The notes below the pieces were generated by a model. It saw only the letters and a list, made by a program, of their open reading frames with translations. It was not told where the DNA came from and ran no database searches. Positions 4,798 to 24,273 of a stretch of DNA of 64,000 bases are shown piece by piece; position 1 is the first letter of the stretch, and each line of letters starts with the position of its first letter. Origin of the DNA: an uncultured Gemmatimonadota bacterium. Its GTDB lineage: Bacteria > Gemmatimonadota > Gemmatimonadetes > Gemmatimonadales > Gemmatimonadaceae. The translations under genes were made by a program, and so were the position numbers. Where the stretch lies: NCBI GenBank assembly GCA_902825965.1, contig CADEDA010000005.1, positions 127,409-191,408 of the forward strand. The letters run 5' to 3'.

Positions 4798-6293
4798 CGG
4801 AATCGCATCTGCGACGCGCGGTACGCCATGGTGGCCCCCGACGCGAGGTTGTAGGCGTGGGCCGAGACGCCGAACCCGATGAGCACCCAGAACAGCGTGC
4901 CTGCGGCACCGGTGAAGATCTCGGAGATGAGCAGGCTGGCCAGCAGCGCCGCCGCGCCCGACCGCACCGCGTTGGCGAAGGGATCGAACTGTGCGTCCGC
5001 CAGGCGCATGCCCTGTACGACGATGCCGAAGAGGCCGAGGAAGAACATGAGGCCGCCGGGCCAGCCGAAGAGGTAGAACACCTCGAGCAGCCCGTTCTCG
5101 AAGTTGCGGATGCCGCCGCTGCGGCGCGCCGTCACGGCGCTGCCGGTGGCGCCGAGCCCCGCACCTTCGGCGTAGTCGAGCACCAGCGCGTACCCGGCGC
5201 GGGCCACGAGCAGGCGGCTGCGCACCGAGGAGTCACCGCCACCGGTGGTCAACGACGTGATGCGCGAGGCGATGCCTTCGCGGAACCGCGGGATGGTGAT
5301 CACCGGCAACGAGAGGATCGCGACCACGGCGATCGTGATCCAGTTGCGCGGCAGGCGACGCACCGGCTGCGTGATGAACTGCAGCACCAGCCCGAGCAGG
5401 AAGCCGAGCCAGGCGGTGCGGATGCGCGAGAGCAACAGGCCGATGAAGCCCAGCACCAGCGCCGGCAGGCGTCCGCGCACGTCGGCCGAGAGCAGGAGGA
5501 GCAGGGCCACCTCCATCACCACGGCGAAGGTGCCGGGCATGGTCATGGAGCCGAACACGCGGAGCGCGAACGGCTCCGGCGCGCCGATCGACTGCAGGTC
5601 GGTGCCGATCATCCACAGCCGGTCCCAGGGCGGCAGGATCGCGAACTGCACGATGCCGTACAGCGCGGCCGGCCCCGCGGCCCAGGCGAGTGTGCGCAGC
5701 AGGGTCTGCCGCATCTCCGGATACAACCGCCAGTGCAGCGCCGTGTGCAGGCCGACCAGCGCCGGCGACAGCCACGCGAGATACGCGTAGAACGCCGGCA
5801 CGACGCCGTTGCGCAGTGCGCCCACGAGGAACCCGTAGGTCACCGCCGCGATCACGAGCAGCGCCGGCGCGAACAGCGTCCCGCGCAGCTCCCGTGCGAA
5901 GCGGATCACCGTCCACACCGCGACGGTGCTGGCCAGCACCGGTGCCGCGAGCGCCAGGCTCTGCGGCAGGTAGCCGTGATGGAAGTCGAGGATGCGCCGC
6001 ACCAGCGGCGTGTAGAACCACAGCGTCACGATGAACGCGAGGTAGCCGCTCGGGCGACGCGTCACCAGCGCGAAGGCGGTGGCCGCGGCGGCCACGGCCC
6101 AGAGGGGCGCGAACGCACGTCCCCCCGCCCCGGCGAGTCCCGCGGCCGTGAGGGCGAGGAACGCCGTCAGCGCGATGGTGGGCAGCGACGGGATCGACGA
6201 GCGGTCGCGGGCGACCGCAGGTGCCGGCGGCGGCGCGGGCGGCACCGGCAGCGTCGGGGCGAGTGTCGGGGCGGGCATCGGGTGCATCGTCAC
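4794..6293 (-). CDS. O-antigen ligase / polymerase-like membrane protein
   Basis: A 499-residue polytopic inner-membrane protein with roughly ten to twelve hydrophobic segments. A long periplasmic loop in the C-terminal half contains the stretch around GAGLGATGSAVTARR. This topology fits the Wzy/WaaL (O-antigen ligase) superfamily, which polymerises repeat units or transfers polymer to an acceptor. The N-terminus is a Pro/Ala-rich cytoplasmic tail of about 35 residues. The GTG at 6293 has a GAGG sequence 5 bases upstream; an in-frame ATG at 6287 is the alternative. Polymerase and ligase roles cannot be separated by sequence; in this locus polymerase (Wzy) seems likelier. Confidence 0.82.
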   Translation of the reverse strand: MTMHPMPAPTLAPTLPVPPAPPPAPAVARDRSSIPSLPTIALTAFLALTAAGLAGAGGRAFAPLWAVAAAATAFALVTRRPSGYLAFIVTLWFYTPLVRRILDFHHGYLPQSLALAAPVLASTVAVWTVIRFARELRGTLFAPALLVIAAVTYGFLVGALRNGVVPAFYAYLAWLSPALVGLHTALHWRLYPEMRQTLLRTLAWAAGPAALYGIVQFAILPPWDRLWMIGTDLQSIGAPEPFALRVFGSMTMPGTFAVVMEVALLLLLSADVRGRLPALVLGFIGLLLSRIRTAWLGFLLGLVLQFITQPVRRLPRNWITIAVVAILSLPVITIPRFREGIASRITSLTTGGGDSSVRSRLLVARAGYALVLDYAEGAGLGATGSAVTARRSGGIRNFENGLLEVFYLFGWPGGLMFFLGLFGIVVQGMRLADAQFDPFANAVRSGAAALLASLLISEIFTGAAGTLFWVLIGFGVSAHAYNLASGATMAYRASQMRFR

Positions 6294-19386: not shown

Positions 19387-21723
19387 ATGCGGATCACGAA
19401 AGTCGGCGTCATCGGCGCCGGCGCGATGGGGGCCGGCATCGCCGCCCTCGCCGCGAGTGCCGGTGTGCCCGTCGTCCTGCTCGACATCCCCGGCAGCGAC
19501 GACCCCAAGTTCCCCGACCGCTCCAAGCCCGCCCGCGAGGGGCTCGAGCGCACCCGGAAGGCCAAACCCGCCGCCTTCCTCGATGCCGCCGCCCACGCGC
19601 GCATCACCGTCGGCAACACCGCCGACCATCTCGAACTGCTCGCCGACTGCAGCTGGATCTGCGAAGCGATCATCGAGAAGCCCGAGCCCAAGCAGGAACT
19701 CTTCGCCAAGCTCGAACGCATCGCGCCCGAGGCCATCGTCACGTCCAACACCTCGGGCATCCCGATGGCGATCCTGCTCAAGGGTCGCAACGCGAAGTTC
19801 CGCGAACGCTTCCTCGGCACGCACTACTTCAATCCGCCGCGCTACATGCACCTGCTCGAGCTCATCCCCACGGGGGAGACGTCGCGCGAGGTGCTCGAGA
19901 GCATGCGGCACTTCCAGGAGCGCATCCTCGGCAAGGGCATCGTGCTCGCGAAGGATGTGCCCGGGTTCGTCGCCAATCGCCTCGGCGTGCACGGCATGGT
20001 CGTCGCCGGCCGACTGATGGTGCAGCACGACCTGAGCATCCCCGAGGTCGACACGCTCACCGGCGCGTTCATCGCGCGCGCCAAGACCGCGACCTTCCGC
20101 ACCGGCGATCTCTCCGGACTCGACGTGCTCGTGCACGTCACCGCCGGACTCTCGCAGACCACGGGCGAGGATCTCGCCCTCGTGCCCTTCGTGCACGAAC
20201 TCGTGAAGAGCGGTCGCTTGGGTGACAAGACCAAGGCCGGCTTCTACAAGAAGGACGGCAAGGAGATCCTCGCGCTCGACTGGAAGACACTCGAGTACAC
20301 GGATCAAGGACGCTTCACCACCGAGGAGATCGACCGGATCTCCAAGCTCCCGCCCGCCGCGCGTGTGGCGAAAGCCAAGGACATCGGCGGCAAACACGGC
20401 GAGTTCCTGCGCGACCTGCTCGTGGAGCAGTTCACCTACGCGTGCGCACTCGCCCCGCAGCTCGCGTACGATGTGGCCGCGATCGATCGCGCGATGGAGT
20501 GGGGCTACGGCTGGGAGATGGGCCCCTTCCGCACCATGGATGCGATGGGCCTCGACTGGCTCCGCGCCGAGATGACCAAACGCGGCAAGACCGTGCCGCC
20601 GATGCTCGCCAAGGCCGGCGCGTCGTTCTACTCGGTCGACACCACGGGTGCGGCACCGGTGGAGATGATCCCCGCACTCGACAAGGACGCACGCATCGCG
20701 GTGCCGCCCATCCCCGGGCAGATCTCGCTCGCCCTGCTCCGCCAGGCCAACAAGGTCGTGAAAGAGAATCCCGAGGCACGCCTCGTCGACCTCGGCGACG
20801 GTGTGCTCTGCCTCGAGTTCTGCGGCAAGATGAACACGCTTGGCGCCGGCGTGATGGACATGGCCGCCATCGCGCTCGACACCGTGGGCAAGGGCAAGTA
20901 CCACGGCCTCGTCATCGGCAACGACGACCCGCGCACCTTCACCGCCGGCGCGAATCTCGCCGGTGTGGGTCAGGTGGTGCAGGCCGGCGACTGGAAGACC
21001 GTCGAAGCGATGGTGAAGCGGTTCCAGGATACCGTGATGTCGTTCCGCTTCGCGCCGTTCCCCGTGGTCGCGGCGCCGTTCGGTCTCACACTCGGCGGCG
21101 GCACGGAGATCTCGCTGCACTGCGACCGCATCCAGGCGCACGCCGAGCTGTACATGGGCTTGGTGGAAGTGGGTGTGGGCCTGATACCCGGCGGCTGCGG
21201 CACCAAGGAGCTCGCCTTCCGCTTCACCAAGGCACTCGAGGCCTACGACGAAGCCGATCCGTTCGAGGGCATCAAGCGCGCGTTCAAGCTCATCGCGCTC
21301 GCGCAGACGAGCACCTCGGCGCATGAAGCACGGGCGATGGGTTTCCTGCGGCCGCACGCCGACCGCATCTCGATGAATCGCGACACCCTGCTGGCCGACG
21401 CCAAGGCGCGCGTGATCGATCTCGCCGCGGACTACGTCGCGCCACTGCCGCGGACGATGACCGCACTGGGCAAGGCGGGCGTGGGCAACCTCGATTACGC
21501 ACTGTGGTCGTTCCAGGAGGCGGGGCAGGCGTCGGCGTACGATGTTCGACTGGGGCACGAGATCGCCGTCGTCTTGTGTGGCGGGGATGGACCCGCCCGC
21601 GAGGTGACGGAGCAGGACCTGCTCGATCTCGAGCGCGATGCCTTCCTGCGACTCCTCGGCACCAAGGAGACGCAGGAGCGGATCATGCACATGCTGACCA
21701 CCGGCAAGCCCCTGAGGAACTGA
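19387..21723 (+). CDS. fadN: Bifunctional 3-hydroxyacyl-CoA dehydrogenase / enoyl-CoA hydratase
   Basis: A 778-residue beta-oxidation enzyme with the dehydrogenase first and the hydratase last, the order of Bacillus FadN and opposite to FadB. VGVIGAGAMGAGIAALAA (6-23) binds NAD. EAIIEKPEPKQELF, GTHYFNPPRYMHLLELI and VANRLGVHGM are dehydrogenase signatures. The hydratase half has FTAGANLAGV and the oxyanion-hole GLTLGGGTEISLHCD. The ATG at 19387 has GGAG six bases upstream. It is followed after two bases by fadA, so the pair makes the last three steps of fatty-acid oxidation. Acyl-CoA dehydrogenase is provided by a separate operon at 25884-27062. Confidence 0.94.
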   Translation: MRITKVGVIGAGAMGAGIAALAASAGVPVVLLDIPGSDDPKFPDRSKPAREGLERTRKAKPAAFLDAAAHARITVGNTADHLELLADCSWICEAIIEKPEPKQELFAKLERIAPEAIVTSNTSGIPMAILLKGRNAKFRERFLGTHYFNPPRYMHLLELIPTGETSREVLESMRHFQERILGKGIVLAKDVPGFVANRLGVHGMVVAGRLMVQHDLSIPEVDTLTGAFIARAKTATFRTGDLSGLDVLVHVTAGLSQTTGEDLALVPFVHELVKSGRLGDKTKAGFYKKDGKEILALDWKTLEYTDQGRFTTEEIDRISKLPPAARVAKAKDIGGKHGEFLRDLLVEQFTYACALAPQLAYDVAAIDRAMEWGYGWEMGPFRTMDAMGLDWLRAEMTKRGKTVPPMLAKAGASFYSVDTTGAAPVEMIPALDKDARIAVPPIPGQISLALLRQANKVVKENPEARLVDLGDGVLCLEFCGKMNTLGAGVMDMAAIALDTVGKGKYHGLVIGNDDPRTFTAGANLAGVGQVVQAGDWKTVEAMVKRFQDTVMSFRFAPFPVVAAPFGLTLGGGTEISLHCDRIQAHAELYMGLVEVGVGLIPGGCGTKELAFRFTKALEAYDEADPFEGIKRAFKLIALAQTSTSAHEARAMGFLRPHADRISMNRDTLLADAKARVIDLAADYVAPLPRTMTALGKAGVGNLDYALWSFQEAGQASAYDVRLGHEIAVVLCGGDGPAREVTEQDLLDLERDAFLRLLGTKETQERIMHMLTTGKPLRN

Positions 21724-21725
21724 CC

Positions 21726-22895
21726 ATGACCAACGAAGTCGTGATCGTATCGGCCGCTCGCAGCGCAGTCGCTCGCGGCAAGAAGGATGGTTCGCTCGCG
21801 GCCACACACCCCGTCGATCTCTCCGCCGAGGTCATGAAGGCCATCGTGGGGCGCGTGAGGTTCGACGCGAGCCGGATCGATGATGTGATCTGGGGCTGCG
21901 CCATGCCCGAGGCGGGTCAGGGCTTGAATCACGCGCGGCTCGCCGCGCTGCGCGCCGGACTGCCGGTGGAGGTCTCCGCCATGACGGTGAACCGCTTCTG
22001 TTCGAGCGGCCTGCAGACCATCGCACTCGGCGCGCAGGCGATCCTGAGCGGCATGAACGATGTGATCCTGGCGGGCGGCGTGGAGATGATGAGCGCCGTG
22101 CCCATGTCCGGATTTCACACGCGGCTGCACCCCGAGATGACCGAAGCGAACATCGGCATGGGCTTCACCGCGGAGCGTGTGGCCAAGCGCTGGGGCATCA
22201 CGCGGCAGATGCAGGACGAGTTCGCGCTGGGTTCGCAGCAGAAGGCCGCAGCGGCGCAGGCCGCGGGTGTCTTCAATGAACAGATCGTGCCGATCACCGT
22301 GGAGAAGGTGAAGTGGAGCGGCGCGAAGAAGACGACGGAGAAGGTCGCATTCGCCACGGACGAGATGGTGCGTGCGGGCACGACCATCGAGGGGCTCGCG
22401 AAGTTGCCGCCCGCCTTCAAGCCGGGTGGCACCGTCACCGCGGGCAACGCATCGCCGCTCTCGGATGGTGCGGCGGGTGTGTTGATGATGACACGCGCCA
22501 AGGCCGAGTCGCTTGGGCTCACGCCGATGGCGCGGTTCGTCACGTTCGCGACGGCGGGTGTGGAGCCCGACGTGATGGGTGTCGGGCCGGTGAAGGCCGT
22601 GCCCAAGGCGCTCGCGCGCGCGGGGATGAAGCTCGACGACATGAAGGTGATCGAGTTCAATGAAGCGTTCGCGGCGCAGGCGCTCGCGGTGATCAAGGAT
22701 CTCGAGATGGACACGTCGCGCGTGAACGTGAACGGTGGGGCGATCGCGCTGGGGCACCCGTTGGGGGCGAGCGGGGCGAAGCTGACCGTGCAGCTGCTGC
22801 ACGAACTCAAGCGACGCGGTGGGGGCACGGGGATGGTGACGATGTGCATCGGCGGTGGCATGGGAGCCGCTGGCATCTTCGAGGTTTATTCGTAG
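21726..22895 (+). CDS. fadA: Acetyl-CoA acyltransferase (3-ketoacyl-CoA thiolase)
   Basis: A 389-residue thiolase that splits 3-ketoacyl-CoA to acetyl-CoA and a shortened acyl-CoA. The nucleophile is C92 in NRFCSSGLQ. EFNEAFAAQ, NGGAIALGHPLGASGA and the second catalytic cysteine in TMCIGGGMGAA complete the active site. The length is normal for the family. The ATG at 21726 is two bases after the fadN stop, so the two subunits of the multienzyme complex are made together. Confidence 0.95.
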   Translation: MTNEVVIVSAARSAVARGKKDGSLAATHPVDLSAEVMKAIVGRVRFDASRIDDVIWGCAMPEAGQGLNHARLAALRAGLPVEVSAMTVNRFCSSGLQTIALGAQAILSGMNDVILAGGVEMMSAVPMSGFHTRLHPEMTEANIGMGFTAERVAKRWGITRQMQDEFALGSQQKAAAAQAAGVFNEQIVPITVEKVKWSGAKKTTEKVAFATDEMVRAGTTIEGLAKLPPAFKPGGTVTAGNASPLSDGAAGVLMMTRAKAESLGLTPMARFVTFATAGVEPDVMGVGPVKAVPKALARAGMKLDDMKVIEFNEAFAAQALAVIKDLEMDTSRVNVNGGAIALGHPLGASGAKLTVQLLHELKRRGGGTGMVTMCIGGGMGAAGIFEVYS

Positions 22896-22980: not shown

Positions 22981-23322
22981 ATGATCCAGATCGCCAGCCC
23001 GGACCATCTCGCCCGCGTCACCGCGATGACGCGCGCCGCGAAGCTCGATGCCCTCGAGCAGGAGATCCTGGCGCGCGCGCCGCGCCCCGCCGCGCGCGTG
23101 CACGTGTCGCTCTCCCCGGTGGAGAGCCGCAGCGCCTTCCTCTCGTACGTGCGCCTCGCCGGGCCAAAGGAGGACGTGCTGGATTTTGCCGCCGTGCTCT
23201 TCGACGAGGTGAAGGGCATGGTTCGTCCCGACGGCACGCTGCCTCTCACGCTCAGCGCCATCGAGAGCGAGAGTTCCGAGCACCTGCAGATCGTGATCGC
23301 GCGGGAGATGTACGAGGGCTAA
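22981..23322 (+). CDS. Small protein of unknown family, copy 1 of a tandem pair
   Basis: A 113-residue soluble protein with no family I recognise. It is paralogous to the gene at 23489-23851. Shared blocks are ILARAPRPAAR/IRARAPRPAAR, DVLDFAA, DEVKGMVRPDG, the LPL after it, and AIESESSEH near the C-terminus. The predicted pattern is a helix, strand, strand, helix, strand order rich in acidic residues, with no signal peptide or membrane segment. The start at 22981 gives a compact protein, though no strong ribosome site precedes it. It lies 85 bases after fadA on the same strand. Function unknown. Confidence 0.75.
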   Translation: MIQIASPDHLARVTAMTRAAKLDALEQEILARAPRPAARVHVSLSPVESRSAFLSYVRLAGPKEDVLDFAAVLFDEVKGMVRPDGTLPLTLSAIESESSEHLQIVIAREMYEG

Positions 23323-23351
23323 GCCTGTCCAGCTTGCGCGTGGATGGTCCG

Positions 23352-23393
23352 ACGGGTGGGGTGCGCGCGCTGTCTCGGCGCTGCCCCACCCGT
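23352..23393 (+). terminator. Strong hairpin between the two paralogous small genes
   Basis: ACGGGTGGGG (23352-23361) and CCCCACCCGT (23384-23393) pair perfectly over 10 bp, with a 22-base loop that itself has GCGC complementarity. It is 30 bases after the stop of copy 1 and before the promoter region of copy 2, so it should separate the two transcripts. It lacks a clear T-run. Confidence 0.55.
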
Positions 23394-23439
23394 TCAGGTA
23401 GCCGCCCCACCTGACCGGCTCGCTTGTCCGCCCAGAGGG

Positions 23440-23459
23440 CTTGTGAAATGTTTCACAAG
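23440..23459. promoter_or_regulatory. Perfect Rex- or CRP-like palindrome upstream of small-protein copy 2
   Basis: CTTGTGAAATGTTTCACAAG is a perfect palindrome with 9-bp arms around a central TG. It contains the published Rex operator form TTGTGAA-N4-TTCACAA and also the CRP form TGTGA-N6-TCACA. It is centred 39 bases upstream of the ATG at 23489. A possible -35 (TTGTCC, 23424-23429) would put the -10 inside the palindrome, which suits a repressor such as Rex better than a CRP activator. The cognate regulator is not in the window. Confidence 0.7.
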
Positions 23460-23488
23460 TCGATCCACCCCTCTCTGGAGCCCCGCAC

Positions 23489-23851
23489 ATGAGCAGCGCC
23501 ACCGTCGCCACGCCCCCGCGCCTCACCACGACGCCGTCCGATCGCGCGAACGCGATGGCGCGCGCCGAACGCCTCGACGCCATCGAAGCCGAGATCCGCG
23601 CACGCGCACCGCGGCCCGCCGCGCGACTGCACATCTCGCTCTCCAATCCGCCCATCCGCACCGTGTACCAGGCGCAGATGCGCATCGCGGGCAACCGCGA
23701 CGACGTCCTCGACTTCGCGGCCGCGCTCTACGACGAGGTGAAGGGCATGGTCCGGCCGGATGGCTCGCTGCCCCTCTCGGTCCAGGCCATCGAGAGCGAG
23801 TCGAGCGAGCACATCCAACTCCTCCTCGTGCGCGACCTCTACGAGGCCTGA
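23489..23851 (+). CDS. Small protein of unknown family, copy 2 of a tandem pair
   Basis: A 120-residue paralogue of the protein at 22981-23322, with a Thr/Pro-rich N-terminal extension of about 15 residues (SSATVATPPRLTTTPSD). The last 95 residues align without large gaps, with identical blocks ARAPRPAAR, DVLDFAA, DEVKGMVRPDG and AIESESSEH. No membrane segment or metal-binding motif is seen. The ATG has GGAG eight bases upstream. Unlike copy 1 it has its own promoter region with a near-ideal Rex/CRP-like palindrome. Its 3-prime end overlaps the convergent VOC gene by 13 bases. Function unknown. Confidence 0.8.
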   Translation: MSSATVATPPRLTTTPSDRANAMARAERLDAIEAEIRARAPRPAARLHISLSNPPIRTVYQAQMRIAGNRDDVLDFAAALYDEVKGMVRPDGSLPLSVQAIESESSEHIQLLLVRDLYEA

Positions 23852-24228
23852 GCGATCGGCCGCTGCTCCGCGATCCCGATGAGGTTCCGCTCGGGATCGC
23901 GGCAGAAGCACATCCAGATCTCGTGCGTGGCCGTCTTGCCCACGAGGTGCGGCTCGTCGTCGAACGGGACGCCCCGCGCCTGCAGCGCCGCGTGGGTCGC
24001 ACGGCAATCCGCGACATCGAAGTACAGGATGGAGTTCGGATGGTCGAACTCCGCCGCACTCGGCGTCGTAAGCATCAACCGCACGCCGCCGGCGTCGAAG
24101 AACGCCATCCCCGACATCGCGAACTGCAGCGGAAGGCCGAGGCCGTCCCGGTAGAACGGCACGGCACGGTCCACGTCGTGCTGCACCAGGGCGATCTGCT
24201 GCAGGCGGCCCAGTCGAATCCCGTCCAT
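23839..24228 (-). CDS. VOC-family (glyoxalase/bleomycin-resistance-like) protein
   Basis: A 129-residue single-domain VOC protein. LQQIALVQHDVDRAVPFYRD at the N-terminus is the first beta-alpha motif, AFFDAGGVRLML the central strand, and FCRDPERNLIGIAE the C-terminal strand with the metal-ligand glutamate. The presumed first ligand position is glutamine or histidine near IALVQHD, so metal binding is uncertain. A strong ribosome site (GGGGAGGGGTG) directly precedes the ATG at 24228. It is divergent from a MarR regulator across an 81-base region with a palindromic operator, so it is probably that regulator's target. Substrate unknown. Confidence 0.85.
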   Translation of the reverse strand: MDGIRLGRLQQIALVQHDVDRAVPFYRDGLGLPLQFAMSGMAFFDAGGVRLMLTTPSAAEFDHPNSILYFDVADCRATHAALQARGVPFDDEPHLVGKTATHEIWMCFCRDPERNLIGIAEQRPIAQAS

Positions 24229-24273
24229 CACCCCTCCCCCGCGGATCCGGCCCCCGCACCGGACGGCACGGAC

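Follow-up and report, generated by a model that had tools for sequence, protein, structure and literature searches.

The consensus TTGTGAA-N4-TTCACAA has been tested by experiment as an operator of Rex in Streptomyces avermitilis (rex, atp, cyd, nuo; PMC5355995) as well as in Staphylococcus aureus (PMC2883068). The Gemmatimonadaceae genome that holds the DNA analysed here (G000; all coordinates refer to the window, i.e. the whole analysed stretch of 64,000 nucleotides) resembles the Rex regulons of these two organisms in the motif itself, and also in that rex, respiratory and ATP-synthase genes are among the predicted targets. The difference is that the predicted targets in G000 additionally include an orphan gene of the Gemmatimonadaceae and a cytochrome c7/molybdopterin operon. 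For this Gemmatimonadota genus, no Rex regulon was found in the literature searched.

The rex gene of G000 reaches 253 bits with the NCBIfam equivalog model NF003992, whose cut-off is 226, and matches Pfam PF06971 and PF02629. Three exact TTGTGAA-N4-TTCACAA sites are present in the 4.07-Mb genome: one lies 16 nt before the rex start, one lies before the orphan gene that we term copy B, and the third stands ahead of a cytochrome c7 gene that is followed by a molybdopterin oxidoreductase gene in a respiratory operon. By our own naming, this operon begins in a way that resembles the start of an alternative complex III or Qrc operon. A site with a single mismatch is found before atpA in G000, in its sister species G297, and in G255, another member of the genus. 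All 17 genomes of the genus have one or more exact sites, and rex, the cytochrome c7/molybdopterin operon and atpA make up the predicted core Rex regulon of the genus (G000:C6 (L093), C10 (L094), C51 (L111)).

An orphan protein pair and its neighbours

Copy A (22981..23322, + strand) encodes 113 aa and copy B (23489..23851, + strand) 120 aa. Both open reading frames begin with ATG and end with TAA or TGA at these coordinates, and the start of A at 22981 is backed by the N-terminus kept in G297; an obvious Shine-Dalgarno sequence was not seen ahead of A. While B is orthologous to the gene that the genus otherwise has in single copy, A is retained only in G000 and G297, where it is 96% identical. 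A sequence-only reading of this DNA had described a tandem duplication with four exact blocks common to both proteins, and this holds in both respects: A and B are paralogues with 62% identity over 102 aa (E = 3.9e-38), and ARAPRPAAR, DVLDFAA, DEVKGMVRPDG and AIESESSEH occur in both in the same order. As the whole-genome search of G000 moreover gave no third copy, the next match having an E-value of 0.155, the likeness of A and B is not a matter of chance.

The predicted proteins are soluble, with about 12-13 kDa and a pI of 5.3-5.6, and contain neither cysteine nor tryptophan. The same reading could not assign them to a family and had proposed profile and structure searches, which gave no confident match to any described family: no profile of Pfam, NCBIfam or PHROGs scored above its curated cut-off, and none even at E 10 except for one chance-level PHROG match, PDB sequences gave no match, and Foldseek comparisons of the models with the PDB and with viral models gave nothing at E <= 0.001. 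The AlphaFold2 models of A (pLDDT 83) and B (pLDDT 81) have the same predicted fold, in which a long helix is followed by beta-beta-alpha-beta-beta. This predicted topology has a vague likeness to ribosomal protein eS24 or to a part of H-NOX (Foldseek E 0.05-0.3, TM-score 0.3-0.4). The top Foldseek matches for A were protein kinases with a TM-score of about 0.2, which is meaningless. Judged by the models, A and B may be seen as a family of small cytoplasmic proteins with a predicted alpha-beta-beta-alpha-beta-beta fold. As to their role, we guess that they assist or tune energy or acyl-CoA metabolism, with the orphan B being grouped with energy metabolism because of the Rex-matching operator before it.

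Upstream of A lie two genes of beta-oxidation, namely a 3-hydroxyacyl-CoA dehydrogenase/enoyl-CoA hydratase fusion (FadB/FadJ-like; 19387..21723, + strand; Pfam 3HCDH_N, 3HCDH and ECH_1, NCBIfam FadB-type models) and an acetyl-CoA acyltransferase (thiolase, FadI/FadA-like; 21729..22895, + strand; Pfam Thiolase_N/C, TIGR01930 over cut-off). On the other side, a convergent glyoxalase/VOC-domain gene (23839..24231, - strand; PF00903), which is a conserved neighbour by synteny, shares 13 bp with the end of B. Within the genus, the family gene is found downstream of the beta-oxidation pair, mostly adjoining it directly but at a distance of 1.7 to 6.9 kb in some genomes, and the convergent VOC-domain gene often comes next. 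As A begins 85 nt after the thiolase stop and has no recognised promoter of its own, it is presumably co-expressed with the beta-oxidation genes in G000. Linkage to thiolase does not extend to all lineages: it holds within 7 kb in all genus members read and is absent in G148 and G215, two genomes of other genera. In G297, thiolase and A are set apart by 6.9 kb of inserted DNA that carries RHS-repeat fragments and a HipA-like gene (L062 3575-10475). Given this insertion and the lack of linkage in both distant genera, A may be linked to the operon only incidentally.

The region between the copies

The strong G+C hairpin that had been reported to split the two copies (23352..23393, + strand) is real, with -33.1 kcal/mol and z = -5.1, and is conserved in G297 (z = -4.8). 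We rejected its assignment as a Rho-independent terminator because it has no T-run; another way of ending transcripts could remain. The hairpin is followed by an imperfect inverted repeat, TCAGGT-N9-ACCTGA (23394..23414), which is a palindrome with 9-bp arms in G297. This longer G297 counterpart, TCAGGTAGG-AGG-CCTACCTGA, may be a second operator.

Beyond the repeat and 30 nt ahead of the B start codon lies the predicted Rex operator TTGTGAAATGTTTCACAA (23441..23458), an exact palindrome with 9-bp arms if 23440-23459 is counted. Even with three mismatches allowed, it is the sole match in the window, where chance would give 0.19 matches at this stringency. The palindrome had been ascribed to the second copy only, correctly so, as A has none, and it had been called Rex/CRP-like; this description can be narrowed to a Rex-type site, since the same exact motif precedes rex and the respiratory operon and, with one mismatch, atpA. 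In G297 the site is perfect, with a symmetrical change of the two central bases (ATGT to ACAT), and the interval that holds it is 75% identical overall between the two species. A sigma-70-type promoter was not recognised. No Rex site was found before the nine single-copy orthologues, which show at least 6 mismatches; either the lineage with A acquired the operator or the other lineages lost it, and acquisition is the simpler assumption. In G255 (L009), a different perfect palindrome, CTTGCACC-TTTT-GGTGCAAG, is located some 58 nt ahead of the B orthologue, nearly where the Rex site stands in G000, and is possibly the operator of another regulator.

Could the palindrome be due to chance or belong to another regulator of the CRP/FNR type, and the pair be an ordinary recent tandem duplicate that is heading for loss? 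We regard this as rather improbable. Base composition lets about 0.0003 exact sites be expected per genome, compared with the three that were found, rex among them, and the reversed control pattern gave 0 sites in G000. CRP/FNR sites have the forms TGTGA-N6-TCACA and TTGAT-N4-ATCAA and are thus looser or different, whereas the outer TT/AA and the inner AA/TT letters of the palindrome fit Rex. The idea of a transient duplicate draws on the fact that most of the genus has one copy and that three genomes have lost the gene, but it conflicts with the strong purifying selection on A and B and with the tree, which rejects a recent duplication.

Age, retention and spread of the family

In the comparison of G000 with G297, A has a dN/dS of 0.039 (bootstrap 0.011-0.091) and B one of 0.148 (bootstrap 0.071-0.274), which is within or below the 0.06-0.19 of three neighbours (thiolase, VOC and phosphotransferase-family genes). 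These values are far from one and indicate purifying selection, in agreement with the earlier claim that selection retains both copies, and because they are so low, A and B can be taken as functional protein-coding genes in both species. In the genus tree, A lies outside all B sequences with a support of 100/100, and a single clade of A and B from G000 and G297 is rejected with an AU p of 0.005, in a test that rests on a short protein and on a long A branch, which could mislead the tree. Because a recent clade of A and B is rejected, the duplication is probably old, i.e. older than the split from G255, with A having been lost elsewhere. The dS between A and B is unusable as a clock at 70% G+C and near saturation. 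That A keeps more ancestral letters than B is not supported, with 6 columns being A-like and 11 B-like at equal HMM scores.

The position of A outside all B sequences and its absence from the rest of the genus would also be compatible with a gain of A by horizontal transfer from an unsampled relative, whereby A came to lie beside a resident B and no old duplication with subsequent losses took place. We consider this unlikely, as the tandem position favours a duplication in place, as no A-type donor is found among the 179 genomes of the family, and as the long A branch may itself have distorted the tree.

Within the genus, 11 of 17 genomes contain homologues, namely A together with B in two and a lone B-type gene in nine. 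Three others have lost the gene, and three are uninformative, either because a thiolase match is missing (G280, G301) or because the contig stops within thiolase (G296); several genomes are incomplete, and absences in these are weak. A look at other Gemmatimonadota for similar paralogue pairs, as had been suggested, revealed that the pair is not general, since most of the genus has one copy and the A-type gene occurs, among the 17 genomes, only in the two sister species. The gene is dispensable, as it has been lost cleanly in G197 and G299, where thiolase abuts the VOC gene, and has decayed in G261 to a remnant of about 25 codons between thiolase and the VOC gene (L061 around 6080-6160).

Outside the genus, a tandem pair of homologues occurs in G148 and a single homologue in G215, and no others were found among 298 sampled genomes of the phylum. 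These distant homologues are 34-39% identical and have a common core of R-x-P-R and G-x-x-x-x-VLD[FY]-x-A-x-L, but unlike A and B they are located away from beta-oxidation genes and have no Rex site; the genes that surround the G148 pair are unrelated (L055 6859-7562). Marginal profile matches in G403, G127, G411, G001 and G075 turned out on reading to be chance matches in unrelated frames. A pattern scan of one-per-species bacterial genomes, which detects close relatives only, gave matches only in the Gemmatimonadaceae and their phylum. Viral contigs and plasmids that were searched contained no homologues, so that viral or plasmid carriage gained no support. As far as searched, the family thus appears to be restricted to the Gemmatimonadaceae.

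Might A and B be subunits of one hetero-oligomer, or might A modulate B, such that Rex would tune the A:B ratio? Both are kept and constrained in the two species that have A, they have the same predicted fold, and G148 has a second tandem pair of distant homologues. Nevertheless, nine species manage with a single gene, and the G148 pair has other surroundings and may have arisen by a separate duplication, so that we would give this possibility little weight.

A probable redox-controlled second copy

We consider it rather probable, without being assured of it, that A and B are old, lineage-restricted paralogues, usually located by beta-oxidation genes, and that B became Rex-regulated, and thereby NADH-induced, in the lineage of G000 and G297. 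In both species, B would have a promoter region to itself, with a Rex operator in it. Rex in its NAD+-bound form would keep B repressed, and rising NADH, be it by oxygen limitation or by an electron overflow such as that from beta-oxidation, would release B together with the respiratory and ATP-synthase operons. Copy A, which has no Rex site, is probably read through from the beta-oxidation operon in G000, and the hairpin after A would separate the two transcription units. Rex binding, NADH induction and separate expression of A and B are what we infer from the sequence. It would go much further, and appears very unlikely to us, that A is made with the beta-oxidation enzymes and B is added at high NADH, with both acting on the same target, whereby a lineage-specific small protein would sense or adjust how fatty-acid oxidation is coupled to respiration; if true, this would be a redox-tuned switch for which no precedent has been described.

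From the operator it can be predicted when B is produced and what controls it, and this makes an otherwise unassignable pair testable. With the sister species and the nine single-copy relatives, nature provides a comparison of one gene in the states that precede and follow its entry into a redox regulon. Together with rex, the respiratory operon and ATP synthase, the predicted sites provide a first sketch of the Rex regulon in this Gemmatimonadota genus.
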